From: an uncultured bacterium
GTDB taxonomy: Bacteria; Verrucomicrobiota; Kiritimatiellia; PWTM01
Reading direction: 5' to 3'
NCBI GenBank assembly: GCA_938010045.1
Contig: CALLFZ010000026.1
Location: forward strand, 1 to 64,000
Length of the DNA: 64,000 nucleotides
The notes under the pieces were generated by a model. That model searched no databases, had not been told where the DNA came from, and was given only the letters and a program-made list of their open reading frames with translations. A program made the translations under genes and the position numbers. Below, one piece after another: positions 5,392 through 23,591 of this stretch. Numbering within the stretch: the first letter of the stretch is position 1; each line of letters starts with the position of its first letter.

Positions 5392-7155
5392 ATGCATTCA
5401 CCCCGTCCACGTACGCTCGAGGCTCTCGGCGCCATTGCGCTGGCGCTGCTGGCCCTGATCTTGTTGCTGCCGGGTAGCGCAACACTGCCGCTGCTCGACC
5501 GCGACGAACCCCGGTTTTCGCGCGCGACGATCGAGATGATCGAGCGGGGCGACTGGGTCGTGCCGTGGTTCAACGGCGACTATCGCTTCGACAAGCCGGT
5601 GCTAACCTACTGGTTGATGCGCGGGGGCTATGCGCTGGCCGGCCGCACCGAGCTTGGCGCGCGGCTTCACTCGATTGTCGCGGCGGCGCTGATGGCCGTG
5701 CTGCTTCATGCGATGGCGACGCGGTGGTGGAGTTCGGCGGCCGGCATGGCGGCGGGGCTAACCTGGCTGTTTTCGCTGCAGGTCTTCATTCACGGTCGCG
5801 CTGCGGTGGCGGACATGCCGATGGTGCTGGCCGTCACGGCGGCACAGTATGCGCTATGGAATCTCGTCGGCGCCGACGGTGCGGGCCCCCGTCGAGGTTG
5901 GTGGTGGCTGCTATGGCTTTGCCTCGGCCTCGGTTTTCTCGCGAAGGGACCGGTGGCGGTTCTGGTCCCGCTGGTCACGCTTCTGCTGTGGCGTTGGGTG
6001 TTCGAACGGCGGCCGCTGCCGTGGCGTCAGCTCGATGCGTTGCGCGGCCTCGCCTTGATGCTTGCCGTGATCGCGCCGTGGGGGCTGCTGGCGCTCAGGC
6101 GCACTGGCGGCGCGTTCTGGCGCGTCGGCATCGGCCACCACGTGGTGCGGCGTGGCCTCGAAGCTTTCGACGGCCGGCCGTTCATCCCCTTCTACTATGT
6201 GCCGACGGCCCTGTTCAGCTATTTTCCATGGATGGCTTGGCTCGGCGCAGTCCTGCTGGTGGCGCGGCGCGAGCGGTCGCCCCGAACGCGGTTTCTGCTT
6301 TCATGGTGGCTTTCGCCCTACCTGATCTTTTTCGCCTACACGACCCAGCTACCGCACTACATCCTGCCGGGTATGCCAGCGTTTTTTCTGCTGCTCGGCC
6401 GCGCGACGGATCCCTCGGCCGGCGCGATCGCGCGCCGCGCGGCGGACCTGCCGCGGTGGTCGCGGCGCTGGCGGGCCGGCGTGATCGCGCTGGGCGGAAC
6501 GCTGATCGTGCTGGCGGCCGCAGCGGCATGGGCCGCCCGGGGCGACCCGGTGTTCGGGCCGCTCGCACCGCTCCTGGGGGGGCTGTCGGTGCTTCTGGCC
6601 GGGCTTCTCACGGCCCAGTGGCTGTATCCTCGGCCGTCCTCTCCTGTGATGGTGGCCGCCGTGCTGATGCTCACGATTGGGGGCGAGGTGTTCGCCCGCT
6701 CGTTGCGCGAACTGTCCGCTGGGCCCGCCTTGCAGGCCGCCCTCGGGCCGCTGCCGCCCGATGTCGAGTGCATCTGGCATCGCTATCAGGAGCCCTCCAC
6801 TGTGTTTTACACGGGGTGCCGCTGGCGAGCGCTGGGCGGCGTCGAGGAGATCCGCGACCGCATGCGCACCCCCGGCCCGCGGGTAGTTCTGGCCGCCGCC
6901 GAGCGACTCGACGTGGACGACCTGCTGCGCACCCGGCTGGCGGAACGCGTCTGGGGCCGCCCGAAACGCGCACGGACCGACTGGAGCGATGAGATCGCCC
7001 GCCTCGAGGTGACGGGCTACCGCCGCCGTGATCTGCGCGTTTTTGTGATCGGTACGGGGTCATGGTATACCTTGGTCGTGTTCGACAATCTCGAGGGGCT
7101 CTCCGGCCGCGAGCCGGTTGCCTCGTTGCCCGTAACCAGCGGAGGTGCGCGATGA
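5392..7155 (+). CDS. ArnT/PMT-like membrane glycosyltransferase
   Basis: An integral membrane protein of 587 residues with about ten or more hydrophobic segments. The N-terminal loop carries LLDRDEPRFSRATIEMIERG and then DKPVLTYWL. This acidic DRDE-R pattern is typical of the first periplasmic loop of lipid-linked sugar transferases of the PMT/ArnT group (GT-C fold). Such enzymes move a sugar from a polyprenyl-phosphate carrier to a lipid or protein outside the cytoplasmic membrane; the acceptor cannot be read from the sequence. Start ATG 5392 is preferred over TTG 5356, which lies in the promoter. The stop overlaps the next gene's start (ATGATGA), so the two are probably co-translated. Confidence 0.8.
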   Translation: MHSPRPRTLEALGAIALALLALILLLPGSATLPLLDRDEPRFSRATIEMIERGDWVVPWFNGDYRFDKPVLTYWLMRGGYALAGRTELGARLHSIVAAALMAVLLHAMATRWWSSAAGMAAGLTWLFSLQVFIHGRAAVADMPMVLAVTAAQYALWNLVGADGAGPRRGWWWLLWLCLGLGFLAKGPVAVLVPLVTLLLWRWVFERRPLPWRQLDALRGLALMLAVIAPWGLLALRRTGGAFWRVGIGHHVVRRGLEAFDGRPFIPFYYVPTALFSYFPWMAWLGAVLLVARRERSPRTRFLLSWWLSPYLIFFAYTTQLPHYILPGMPAFFLLLGRATDPSAGAIARRAADLPRWSRRWRAGVIALGGTLIVLAAAAAWAARGDPVFGPLAPLLGGLSVLLAGLLTAQWLYPRPSSPVMVAAVLMLTIGGEVFARSLRELSAGPALQAALGPLPPDVECIWHRYQEPSTVFYTGCRWRALGGVEEIRDRMRTPGPRVVLAAAERLDVDDLLRTRLAERVWGRPKRARTDWSDEIARLEVTGYRRRDLRVFVIGTGSWYTLVVFDNLEGLSGREPVASLPVTSGGAR

Positions 7156-13744: not shown

Positions 13745-13933
13745 GCCGATCGGACCTCCGCTGCGGCCGCACGATCCGCCGGCCGAGGAAACCAGGCCAG
13801 CCGGCATCGCGGAACGCGCACAGCCACAGCGGCCCCAGTCGGCCAGGAAGGCCCGGCGAAACCGACGTTTGCACATCGCACCTGGCCACGATCGAGCCCG
13901 TGGCCACGGAGCGCGGCGCGGAGCACTCAACGG

Positions 13934-15951
13934 ATGAAGCGCATATCCCGTCTTCGCCACATCCACATGTACCGCGTGTTCGCGCTGTTCGTTCTCGTGT
14001 CCCGGACGGCGCTCACGGCGCCGCAGATGCGCGCCCCAGACCCCGGCGAGGCCCGCTGGACTGGTGGCTTCTGGGGCGATTGGTTCGCGCGTTGCCACAC
14101 GCGCACGCTGCCCGCGCTCGAGACGGCCATGCGACGATGCCCCACCAACGGCGCTCAGCTCCGCAACTTCGAACTCGTCGGCACGCCCGACGCCCGGCAC
14201 TCGGGCAACCACTGGAGCGACGGCGATGTCTACAAGTGGCTCGAGGCGATGGCGCGCGTGTACGCCGTAACCCGCGACCTTCCTCTGCTGGAACGGATGG
14301 ACGAATGGATCGCGAAGATCGCGCGCACGCAGGCCGAAGATGGCTATCTCAGCACCCAGACGCAGTTCAACCCCGCCCAACCCCGCTGGGGCGCCCGCCG
14401 GTACCACGAGCTGTACAATATGGGGCATCTGCTCACCGCCGCGGCGGTTCACCACCGGGCGACGGGCCGCACGAACTTTCTGGCGGTGGCGCTGCGCGTA
14501 GCGGAGTGTCTCGACCGCACCTTTCGGCCGCGCCCAAAGGCGCTCGCGCACTTCGGGTGGAACCCCTCCAACATCATGGGACTGATGGACCTCTACCGCG
14601 TGACGGGCAACCGCCGCCATCTCGAATTGGCCGCCATGTTCGTGGACATGCGCGGCTCGGAACCGTGGCCGTCGCCGGACGAATGGCGCGTGCCGCTGGG
14701 CGATCCGCATCCGGGCGATCAGACGCAAGACCGCGTCCCGTTGAGGCGCGAGCGGCAAGCAGTGGGCCACGCGGTGACCGGCGCGTATCTCTCAGCGGTG
14801 CGGCCGGAGTTGCCGGCGAGACCGGCGATGCGGCTCTCCTCGGCGCGCTCAAAGCGATCTGGGATCACATCACCGGCCGCAAGATGTACATCACCGGCGG
14901 AACGGGCGCGATGCGGCGCGGGCTCTCGATCCGCGATGACCGCGTGCACGAGGCCTACGGCGGCGCGTACGAGCTGCCGTTGCGCACCGCCTATAACGAG
15001 ACCTGCGCGAACATCGCCCACGCCATGTTCAGCCGCCAGCTGCTCGCACTCACCGACGAGGCCAAGTACGCGGACGTGATGGAACTGGTGCTGCACAACT
15101 CGATGCTCTCCGCGATCAGCCTCGACGGCGCGCGGTTGTTTTACACAAATCCGCTCGAACGTCGGCGCGATGCTCCGCTCGAGTCGCACGACGCGTGGGA
15201 GCGATGGACCTGCTGGAGGTGCTTCTGCTGCCCGCCGAGCGTGGCGCGCACGATCGCGGGGCTCGCGGATTGGGCCTGGAGTCTCTCGGACGACTCCTCG
15301 TGGGTTCACCTCTACGGCACGGGAGAGATCGCCGCGCAGCTGCCGGGGCGCGGTCGCATTCGTGTTGTGCAGCGCTCGAACTTTCCGTGGGAGGGGCGCG
15401 TCGAACTCGGCATCGTCGAAACGCCGACTGAGCCCTGGGCGCTCCGGCTGCGCGTGCCCGGCTGGACCGCGAGCGCAACGCTGACGCTGAACGGTGAACC
15501 GATGTCGGCGCCCGATGCTGGCACGTATCTCGTGCTCCAGCGGACGTGGCGCGCGGGCGACCGTATCGGACTCGAGATGTCGATGCCCGTTCGACGCGTG
15601 ATCGCGGACCCGCGCGTGGAGTCGTGCCGCGGTCGCGTCGCGGTCATGCGCGGTCCGGTGGTGTACTGCGTTGAGTCGGTGGACCTGCCGGAGGGAGTGG
15701 CGCTGGACCAGGTCCGGCTCCCGCTGACCGGCGAGCTTTGCGCTCGTTGGATGCCGGAGCCGCTGGGTGGCGTCGTGGCGATCGAAGTTGAAGGCCGGGC
15801 GGACGAACCCGCGGCGGCGGACGCCTCCGAGGCATTCTACCGGCCCGCACCGGCTGGCGCCCGGCGGATTCCACTGCGTCTGGTGCCCTATTTCGCGTGG
15901 TGCAATCGCCCCCCCCGCGAGATGGCGGTCTGGTTGCCGGCGACACACTGA
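13934..15951 (+). pseudogene. GH127 (DUF1680) glycosidase gene with a frameshift
   Basis: Beta-L-arabinofuranosidase family. The first frame (from ATG 13934, signal peptide MKRISRLRHIHMYRVFALFV) encodes the N-terminal (alpha/alpha)6 part: DVYKWLEAMARVYA, DGYLSTQTQ, ELYNMGHLLTAA, QAVGHAVTGAYL. The continuation (ALKAIWDHITGRKMYITGG, then CWRCFCCPPSVARTIAGL with the Cys cluster) is in the next frame. The switch falls at about 14796-14800, where one extra G would restore SAGAAGVAGETGD as in the family. So either a one-base deletion inactivated the gene or there is a sequencing/assembly error. Both halves are otherwise intact, which favours a recent event or an error. Confidence 0.8.
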
Positions 15952-20608: not shown

Positions 20609-20683
<75 letters not shown>

Positions 20684-21155: not shown

Positions 21156-23591
21156 TCAGCTCCCGTACACCTTTTCGAAGGGCCACATCAGTACGCCGCC
21201 GTCGAGCACCCGCACATCGGGGAACCCGGCATGGCGCAGAATGATCGAGGCCTCATACGCGCGCAGCGAGTTCCGGCAGCAGAGCAGCAGCACCCCGCTC
21301 TGCGGCAGCTCGCGCATGCGGCCGCGCAGCGATCCGAGCGGGACCAGCCGGGCGCCGGGAATGCGCATCTCGTCGTACTCGCGCGGCGTGCTGACGTCCA
21401 CCAGCGTGACGTCGCGGCGCTCCTGCAGCAGGCGGCGCGCCTCCAGGGGGGGCACGCCGACGAAGAGACCGTCGAGCTTGTTCCGCGCAACGTTGCAGGC
21501 GGTGATCAGGTTGTCCAGCGCTGGCGAGAACGGCGGCGCGTAGCCGAGATCGAGGTGCACAATCTGGTCCACCGTCATGCCCGCGGTGATGGCGGTGGCG
21601 GCGACGTCAATTCGCTTGTCGCCCTCGCCGGGCCCCAGCACCTGCACCCCGAGCAGCCGCCGGGAGGGGCGTTCGACGACGAGCTTCAGCATCAGCAGGC
21701 GCGCCCCGGGCAGAAAATGCTCGCGGTCGGGCGCCGCGCAATGCACGGTCACGATGTCGCGACCGAGCTCCCGGGCCTCGCGCTCGTTGAGGCCCGTGCG
21801 GCCGACGCAGTAGTCGAACACCTGGCAGACCACCGTGCCGAGAATGCCCGGGAACCGATCACTGCCGCCACACAGGCGCACTGCCGCGACGCGGCCCTGC
21901 TTGTTCGCGGTGGAACCGAGCGGCACATAGGCGGGGCGGCCGGTGAGAAGATCGTGGTGCTCGACGCAGTCGCCAGCCGCGTAGATGTCGGGATCGCTTG
22001 TGCGCTGGTGCTCGTCCACGAGGATCCCGCCGGTCCCGCCGATCGCGAGCCCCGCCGCGCGCGCCAGCGACGTCTCCGGCCGCACACCCGCCGCCAGAAC
22101 GACCAAATCCGCCGGAATCTCGCCGCGGTCGGTGATCACCCCCCGCACCGCCTCGTCGCCGCGGAACCCCCGCACTTCGACGCTCGTCATGACTCGCACG
22201 CCGTTCGCCTCGAGGTGCTGCTGCAGCAGCCGGGAGATCTCCTCATCGAGCATGCCGAGAATCTGCGGCATGCGCTCGACGATCGTGAGCCGGCAGCCAC
22301 GCTGCACGAGGGCCTTCGTCATCTCGACCGCAATGAGCCCCCCGCCGACGAGCACGACGTCGAGCGCACGCCCGCTCGCGAGGGTGTGGCGGATGCCCTC
22401 CGCGTCATGTACGCCGTGCAGCGTGTAGATGTTGCGCAGGTTCCGTCCCGGCAGGTCGGGCACGACCGGCCGCGCGCCGGTCGCGAGCACGAGCCGGTCG
22501 TACGGAATCCATCGCTCGGCGCCGTCGGATAGGTCGCGGATGCGCACGCGCTTCCCGCGCCGGTCCACCTCGACCGCCTCCGTGCGGCTGAGCACGCTGA
22601 CGTTGCGCACGTTGTGAAAGAAGATCGGATCGCGCACCGCTCCGAGCGGCGTCGAAAGCAACGCGCGACGGTCGCGCACCGTGCCGGAGACGTAGTAGGG
22701 CAGCCCGCAGCCCGCATACGAGAGCAGCTCGCCGCGCTCGATGATGGTCACCTCGGCGTCCGGTCTCAGCCGCATCACCTTCGAGGCGACCTTCGGTCCG
22801 GCCGCAACGCCCCCGATGATCACCACGCGGAGCCGCTCTCCCTTGTCGGCCGGCGGTTCCTCAGCGGGCGCCTCAGCGGCCGGTAGATCCACCACAAACT
22901 CCGCCCCTCCCAGGTCGGAGCTTCCCGCCCGGACCGTTCCGCCGCACGACTCGACCAGCGCGCGCACGAGTGCCAACCCGAGCCCCGCGCCGGGCGTACG
23001 GCTCTCGCCGGGCACCATCATGCGGTAGAACGGCTCGAAAATACGGGTTCGTTCCGCCTCGGGCACGCCCGGGCCAGAATCGCCCACCGAGATGCGCACG
23101 CCGTCCGCCCCCTCACGCGCCACGAGGAGTCTCACCTGACCGTGCCGCGGCGTGTATTTGAGCGCGTTTTCGATCAATGCCCGCAGCACCTCCACCAACA
23201 GTTCCTCGCCGGCCTTCGCCACCGCCGGTTCGTCGCGAACATCCAGCGCGAGAGAAATGTCCCGCCGTTGCGCCTCCTCGAGCCACTGTTGGTGAACCCG
23301 ACGCGCGACAACCGCCGCATCGCACCACGCCGCCTCCCCCGCCGATGGCGGACGGCGGACGATCGTCAGCAGCCGACGGACGGTCTCGAGCGCCTCCGTG
23401 AGCCTCGCGTCCGCGCGCTGCAGCAGGTCCTTCTGACGGGGACTCAGCGGACCGGCCAGGTCGGCCATCAGCGTTTGCAGGACCGTTTCGGCGGCGCCGA
23501 TCGGCGACTTCAACTGGTGGGCCACCACCGCCGCAAAGCCCAACGGATCGCTGAACCTCGTCTCCCCGCTATGGTTGTGCTGATCCGGCAT
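21156..23591 (-). CDS. Histidine kinase / CoA-disulfide reductase / rhodanese fusion protein
   Basis: 811 residues in one frame. Residues 17-237 are a histidine kinase core: H-box AVVAHQLKSPIG (H25), N-box ALIENALKYT, G1 VGDSGPGVPE, F-box IFEPFYRM, G2 GAGLGLALV. Residues 253-700 are a FAD- and pyridine-nucleotide-dependent reductase of the CoA-disulfide reductase/NADH oxidase group: FAD motif VIIGGVAAG, redox Cys295 in SYAGCGLPYYVSG, NAD(P) motif VVLVGGGLIAVE, second FAD site YAAGDCVE. Residues 712-811 are a rhodanese domain with CCRNSLRAYEA (Cys771/772). No membrane segment or sensor domain is present, so the reductase is the likely input, reporting thiol/CoA or NAD(P)H state. No response regulator is adjacent. 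It forms an operon with the small gene downstream. Confidence 0.88.
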   Translation of the reverse strand: MPDQHNHSGETRFSDPLGFAAVVAHQLKSPIGAAETVLQTLMADLAGPLSPRQKDLLQRADARLTEALETVRRLLTIVRRPPSAGEAAWCDAAVVARRVHQQWLEEAQRRDISLALDVRDEPAVAKAGEELLVEVLRALIENALKYTPRHGQVRLLVAREGADGVRISVGDSGPGVPEAERTRIFEPFYRMMVPGESRTPGAGLGLALVRALVESCGGTVRAGSSDLGGAEFVVDLPAAEAPAEEPPADKGERLRVVIIGGVAAGPKVASKVMRLRPDAEVTIIERGELLSYAGCGLPYYVSGTVRDRRALLSTPLGAVRDPIFFHNVRNVSVLSRTEAVEVDRRGKRVRIRDLSDGAERWIPYDRLVLATGARPVVPDLPGRNLRNIYTLHGVHDAEGIRHTLASGRALDVVLVGGGLIAVEMTKALVQRGCRLTIVERMPQILGMLDEEISRLLQQHLEANGVRVMTSVEVRGFRGDEAVRGVITDRGEIPADLVVLAAGVRPETSLARAAGLAIGGTGGILVDEHQRTSDPDIYAAGDCVEHHDLLTGRPAYVPLGSTANKQGRVAAVRLCGGSDRFPGILGTVVCQVFDYCVGRTGLNEREARELGRDIVTVHCAAPDREHFLPGARLLMLKLVVERPSRRLLGVQVLGPGEGDKRIDVAATAITAGMTVDQIVHLDLGYAPPFSPALDNLITACNVARNKLDGLFVGVPPLEARRLLQERRDVTLVDVSTPREYDEMRIPGARLVPLGSLRGRMRELPQSGVLLLCCRNSLRAYEASIILRHAGFPDVRVLDGGVLMWPFEKVYGS

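Follow-up and report, generated by a model that had tools for sequence, protein, structure and literature searches.

A single unbroken reading frame in the genome of an uncultured member of the Kiritimatiellia joins a histidine kinase core to an NADH-dependent persulfide reductase with a C-terminal rhodanese domain, giving a protein of 811 amino acids that is conserved in 17 genomes. The window analysed is the whole 64,000-nucleotide stretch of contig CALLFZ010000026.1 (positions 1 to 64,000, assembly GCA_938010045.1). The architecture is apparently new and undescribed: a literature search found no description of a kinase-reductase fusion, an absence that is in itself weak evidence. To our knowledge, few histidine kinases have a whole metabolic enzyme as a built-in sensor. 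We see an even chance that the protein is a soluble redox-sensor histidine kinase with the complete persulfide (CoA-persulfide) reductase and rhodanese as its C-terminal input, tied to H2 metabolism.

Domain organization of the fused protein

The features of the gene and its downstream neighbor are collected in Table 1. Five Pfam domains follow one another along the chain, with the HisKA match at residues 19-79 (27.8 bits against a cut-off of 26.9), Pyr_redox_2 at 255-550 (3.9e-66) and Pyr_redox_dim at 590-693, and the catalytic motifs are present, in agreement with an earlier note made from the DNA letters, which had read a complete kinase core and the two cysteines in one frame. The kinase half has the make-up of a HisKA-type enzyme, with a DHp domain carrying a phospho-acceptor histidine and a HATPase_c domain with N (NALKYTP), G1 (DSGPGV), F (FEPF) and G2 (GAGLGL) boxes, all in common with the PnpS/PhoR/SasA/KdpD-like cores. 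It differs from these kinases in being without an N-terminal sensor or membrane part, in carrying an entire flavoenzyme as an extra C-terminal module, and in having a glutamine directly after the phospho-acceptor histidine.

Table 1. Positions of the fused gene, its parts and the adjoining downstream gene in the window.
Feature	Position	Strand	Basis
Fused gene (ATG at 23591, stop at 21156), HisKA-HATPase_c-persulfide reductase (FAD/NADH)-rhodanese, 811 aa	21156..23591	-	ORF and Pfam; homologues in 16 other genomes
DHp/HisKA dimerization and phospho-acceptor domain, residues 16-79	23355..23546	-	Pfam HisKA barely above cut-off; two-helix hairpin in AF2 model (low overall confidence)
Phospho-acceptor His25 codon, motif AHQLKSP	23517..23519	-	His invariant in 14/14 fused homologues
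HATPase_c ATP-binding domain, residues 129-239, with N, G1, F and G2 boxes	22875..23207	-	Pfam 1.5e-23; boxes conserved
Short variable linker, residues 240-254	22830..22874	-	12-18 aa in 14 homologues; dN/dS 0.45-0.66
NADH-dependent persulfide reductase/CoADR core with FAD, NAD and dimerization domains, residues 255-706	21474..22829	-	Pfam; phmmer to 6pfz 6.4e-145; Foldseek top match 6pfz
Redox-active Cys295 codon, motif SYAGCGLPYY	22707..22709	-	Invariant in fused and unfused homologues
Rhodanese domain, residues 719-803	21183..21437	-	Pfam 3e-12
Rhodanese catalytic Cys772 codon, motif CRNSLR	21276..21278	-	Invariant in fused and unfused homologues
CPF_0552-family protein (TM1266-like, relative of a hydrogenase-system regulator), 94 aa	20852..21136	-	NF052672 87.5 bits, cut-off 85

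Because the frame can be extended upstream by no more than 12 codons (an open frame of 823 amino acids), the DHp helix begins at about residue 16, and hydrophobic segments are absent from the kinase half (19-residue Kyte-Doolittle maximum of 1.29), neither an N-terminal sensor nor a membrane anchor is possible, which agrees with the statement of the earlier note that there is no other sensor domain. The sequence thus supports a membrane-free kinase for which the complete reductase is the only possible built-in input, as also proposed there. Only 8-26 residues stand ahead of the kinase core in 12 of 14 homologues; the other two, G002 and G006, have 53-61 residues at the earliest start used by the gene caller. 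A 1636-amino-acid open frame in G007 was considered as an N-terminal extension and rejected, since the added stretch does not resemble a sensor and the opposite strand has an equally long frame, and the region is read as non-coding.

An AF2 model built from a six-sequence alignment (pLDDT 62.5, pTM 0.33) gives the DHp hairpin and the CA fold at the local level. It was set aside as too weak a guide to domain arrangement and is used for local secondary structure only; a Foldseek search with it simply returns Npsr.

Identity of the reductase and rhodanese

Judged by its sequence, the part made up of reductase and rhodanese is most aptly named an NADH-dependent persulfide reductase of the Npsr/CoAPR type. 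Its top match among solved structures is the NAD-dependent persulfide reductase of Archaeoglobus fulgidus (6pfz, approximately 43% identity; the match, at 6.4e-145, spans residues 255-803). Next come a Desulfovibrio reductase and the persulfide/CoADR-RHD enzymes of Shewanella, Bacillus and Enterococcus. The CoA-disulfide-reductase equivalog TIGR03385 (NCBIfam) is matched with 396.7 bits, below its cut-off of 578.8, and the name CoA-disulfide reductase first given to this part should therefore be replaced by persulfide (CoA-persulfide) reductase. With the characterized Npsr/CoADR-RHD/CoAPR enzymes (A. fulgidus 6pfz, Shewanella loihica 3ntd, Bacillus anthracis 3icr and Enterococcus faecalis 8a56) the protein shares the order of FAD, NAD, dimerization and C-terminal rhodanese domains, the redox cysteine near the flavin and the rhodanese cysteine, both of which had been noted earlier and are kept in 14/14 fused homologues as Cys295 and Cys772. 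These known members begin at the FAD domain, without a histidine kinase, and are enzymes, not known sensors. Since the combination of reductase and rhodanese is already a known architecture, the kinase fusion is the sole unusual part of the protein.

The A. fulgidus enzyme uses NADH to reduce persulfides and polysulfide and is inactive on CoA disulfide; in its relay the rhodanese cysteine takes the sulfur first and bound CoA ferries it to the active-site cysteine (PMC7969121). This Npsr chemistry, with its NADH dependence and rhodanese/CoA relay (PMC7969121, PMC9405070), can by analogy be inferred for the window protein, in which FAD, Cys295, CoA and Cys772 would take part in the same scheme. 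A second CoADR-rhodanese paralogue, of 832 amino acids and without a kinase, is encoded elsewhere in the window genome (G000:C7:58115-59824, L077); read by eye, its C-terminal part resembles TusA and DsrE-like sulfur-carrier domains.

Distribution and conservation

Full-length fused homologues, sharing 49-90% identity with the window protein, were found in 17 genomes from seven families in two classes of one phylum, the window genome included: eight copies in the window's own family (f1), two each in f25, f90 and f60, and one each in f8, f93 and f94. The sampling of homologues covers one phylum. Beyond it the analysis extended no further than a scan of GTDB contigs with a peptide pattern, which returned five fused loci, all in this group or in unnamed MAGs, so that the fusion may occur more widely. 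Among the 14 fused proteins aligned, the H-box follows the consensus AHQ[LM][KRQ][SA]P with an invariant histidine, and the N, G1, F and G2 motifs and both cysteines are kept. The loss of the histidine or of the ATP-site residues among homologues, or confinement of the fusion to one assembly, had been named beforehand as refuting the reading; neither was found, the histidine being kept in all 14 fused homologues examined, the catalytic residues across the seven families, and the fusion in 17 genomes. The fused gene of G555 has an in-frame TAG between reductase and rhodanese.

A tree built from the reductase-rhodanese part places the 14 fused proteins in a single clade (100/98) among 20 unfused relatives, and a single fusion change is recovered in 100% of bootstrap trees, so that the 14 copies tested have a single old fusion origin. 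Pairwise distances of the kinase and reductase halves are strongly correlated among the fused copies (Mantel r 0.886, 0/2000 permutations). Most of the genomes that have a named record are metagenome-assembled, and an assembly or annotation artefact joining two genes might be suspected on that ground; the presence of an identical junction in 17 genomes of seven families and two classes, with halves that co-diverge, refutes this and leaves the probability of such an accident negligible.

Both halves are under purifying selection, with dN/dS values between G000, the window genome, and G001 of 0.058 for the kinase, 0.061 for the reductase and 0.078 for the rhodanese. A ratio of approximately 0.06 implies that the kinase is maintained. 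The linker gives 0.45 in the same comparison and 0.45-0.66 overall, which is relaxed constraint; it is often rich in proline, alanine and glutamate in the 14 homologues and looks like a flexible tether.

The residue that follows His25 is glutamine, not the usual glutamate or aspartate, in 14/14 fused copies. An acidic residue at this position usually, though not universally, aids phosphotransfer in HisKA kinases, and the invariant glutamine may make autophosphorylation slower. Related genomes contain kinases with the motif HQLRTP beside OmpR-type regulators, and the glutamine therefore does not exclude membership of the HisKA class. Together with the narrow HisKA score, it would suit a degenerate kinase half that acts as a mere dimerization or nucleotide-binding (ATP/energy-sensing) module for the reductase, but we hold this to be very improbable given that the histidine and all four boxes are conserved family-wide at the low dN/dS described earlier. 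The closest non-fused kinases are only 29-36% identical to the kinase half, and for this reason no origin is claimed for it.

Genomic neighborhood and hydrogenases

A link with hydrogenase genes in other families and a TM1266-like gene immediately downstream of the fused gene had both escaped the earlier note. The CPF_0552-family gene of the window starts 19 nt past the stop of the fused gene on the same strand and is its probable operon partner. Its 94-amino-acid product passes the CPF_0552 cut-off and falls below that of the TM1266 equivalog TIGR03959 (27.1 against 60.8 bits). A gene of this kind follows the fused gene in five genomes, all of family f1: in G001, G002 and G003 as in G000, and in G006 beyond an intervening CBS-domain gene. 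In this family it is the only such adjacent gene, with no hydrogenase gene alongside. Where CPF_0552 genes occur elsewhere than beside the fused gene their neighbors are mixed. One adjoins a putative hydrogenase maturation protease gene, identified by reading (G056:C10, near 6043-7075 on the minus strand, L174), and another a thioredoxin-reductase-like gene (G008, L172). The window genome has a separate, weaker-matching TM1266-type paralogue beside a hydG-like gene.

Five fused copies from three families adjoin hydrogenase genes (hyp, hoxEFUYH or hydEFG). The fused gene lies between hypA and hypB in G101 (hypD-hypE-hypA-fused gene-hypB-CBS) and G109 (hypE-hypA-fused gene-hypB-CBS), and follows hypE-hypA-hypB in G540. 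The order in G325 is NiCoT, Rex, the fused gene, hydF, hydE, hydG, a REC-kinase and a kinase with an [FeFe]-hydrogenase-like domain, while in G555 a hoxEFUYH-like operon with a REC gene as its last member is divergent from the fused gene. A NuoE/HoxE-like gene is likewise divergent from the fused gene in G015; this locus is not counted, since the contig ends before any hydrogenase subunit is visible.

Discounting one weak radical-SAM match (u243), the 21 unfused relatives have neither hydrogenase genes nor a CPF_0552 gene nearby. Hydrogenase genes alone thus mark 5/17 fused against 0/21 unfused loci (p=0.012), and hydrogenase or TM1266-like genes 10/17 against 0/21 (p=4e-5), figures that are indications only, because the tests are post hoc and compare loci of unequal length from related genomes. 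Co-occurrence of the fusion with HypD (9/11 fused against 99/277 other genomes in the class, p=0.003) is suggestive, with one family driving the signal; G015 has the fusion, and HypD was not found there. FeFe hydrogenase was considered as a discriminator and dropped, as it is present in 17/17 genomes checked, fused or not. Read by eye, the loci of unfused relatives (L124-L136, L155, L158, L159 and L170) appear to hold clusters of Mrp/NifX-type iron-sulfur, OsmC, thioredoxin and ArsR-type genes. The fused genes have other neighbors.

The neighbors of the fused gene bear on the possibility that the fusion works as a tether and does no sensing, with a partner such as the CPF_0552/TM1266-like or a CBS-domain protein signaling to the kinase and the reductase held near it as output or bystander. 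A short, variable linker under relaxed constraint would allow this, and small partners of ligand-binding type do recur downstream (CPF_0552 in five genomes, CBS in G006, G101 and G109). The reductase, however, is part of the chain in every case, which is not true of adjacency of the partners, and one ancient fusion has been retained in seven families with its halves co-diverging; we consider a tether unlikely.

The fused protein also invites comparison with sensory [FeFe]-hydrogenase-type kinases, which likewise have an enzyme-derived redox domain as kinase input, as proposed here, and genes in hydrogenase loci. G325 has one near its fused gene, and the window genome has one on contig C32. HoxBC/HoxJ is an H2-sensing system in which a [NiFe] hydrogenase is the kinase input. 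Neither type of input, whether [FeFe]-hydrogenase-like domain or [NiFe] hydrogenase, has the fold of a pyridine nucleotide-disulfide reductase, which would be the input of the fused protein. At G000:C32:8375-11544 (L084/L102) a ferredoxin/[FeFe]-hydrogenase-like domain is fused to a histidine kinase and followed by a REC-histidine kinase, and versions of these kinases approximately 50% identical lie within the hydEFG locus of G325. The REC-kinase beside the sensory [FeFe]-type kinase is the closest kinase in the window genome to the kinase half of the fused protein.

Candidate response regulators

A co-occurring orphan response regulator had been suggested as a check on the kinase. None adjoins the fused gene within the window, and candidates occur at other loci. 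Directly downstream of the fused gene in G005 and G008 come a gene for a PAS histidine kinase and one for a protein carrying two receiver domains, between which lies a region that looks like a degenerate ATPase. This pair adjoins the fused gene in these two genomes only (G005:C105, L045; G008:C193, L044) and is kept elsewhere in the family, including the window genome (C7:41869-44582, L076), where the REC-REC orthologue occupies C7:41869-43422. The REC-REC protein of G005 and G008 and the REC protein ending the hoxEFUYH-like operon of G555 are the candidate partners.

The receiver proteins also bear on whether the kinase core might mainly control the attached reductase, making the protein chiefly a phosphorylation-regulated detoxification or persulfide-reducing enzyme. 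Every catalytic residue of reductase and rhodanese is kept, so that a working enzyme is to be expected, and the unfused relatives are ordinary Npsr-type enzymes. But HisKA kinases normally phosphorylate receiver domains, not enzymes, receiver proteins stand beside some fused copies, and the neighborhood of the fused gene is unlike that of the unfused enzymes, which together make regulation of the reductase by the kinase improbable.

A possible mechanism

If the reductase is the sensory input of the kinase, the dimeric enzyme (FAD, Cys295, bound CoA and rhodanese Cys772) would take in sulfane sulfur and NADH, and its redox, persulfide or NADH state, or the open or closed position of the rhodanese, would alter how the dimeric DHp-CA core is arranged and with it autophosphorylation. 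The phosphate would pass to a stand-alone receiver, for which the proteins of G555 and of G005/G008 are candidates, and the output could tune hydrogenase or other reductant-disposal functions, so that H2 metabolism would track cellular NADH and sulfur-redox state. The linker is short and fast-evolving, and it is therefore by inference that we speak of allosteric coupling instead of simple tethering. Against a sensor stand this flexible linker, which appears to offer no obvious rigid signal route, the glutamine after the histidine in all copies and the lack of an adjacent response regulator in the window genome.

We would go further only tentatively, and with somewhat more doubt than belief, in proposing an undescribed class of cytosolic histidine kinase that senses through a catalytically active NADH:CoA-persulfide reductase. 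The turnover state of the enzyme (NADH, CoA-SSH and persulfidated rhodanese) would gate the kinase and determine the levels of hydrogenases, NAD-linked ones among them, and in Lentisphaerae/Kiritimatiellae-like anaerobes sulfane-sulfur redox would in this way be coupled to H2 metabolism. Were the reductase to gate the kinase, a signal would be read directly from the turnover of an enzyme, and in a phylum of mostly uncultured anaerobes the control of hydrogenases would be linked to persulfide/NADH state. The conserved family offers ready natural variants for structural and assay work.

Other features of the window

A fumarase gene lies upstream of the fused gene on the other strand. Shortly beyond the end of the CPF_0552 gene comes a tRNA-Gly (ccc) gene of opposite orientation (20609-20683, plus strand). 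Further away, a GH127 beta-L-arabinofuranosidase gene (13900-15951, plus strand) is split across two frames, one match to the catalytic domain ending near 15078 and another resuming in a different frame from 14884; the frameshift lies either in the genome itself or in its assembly.
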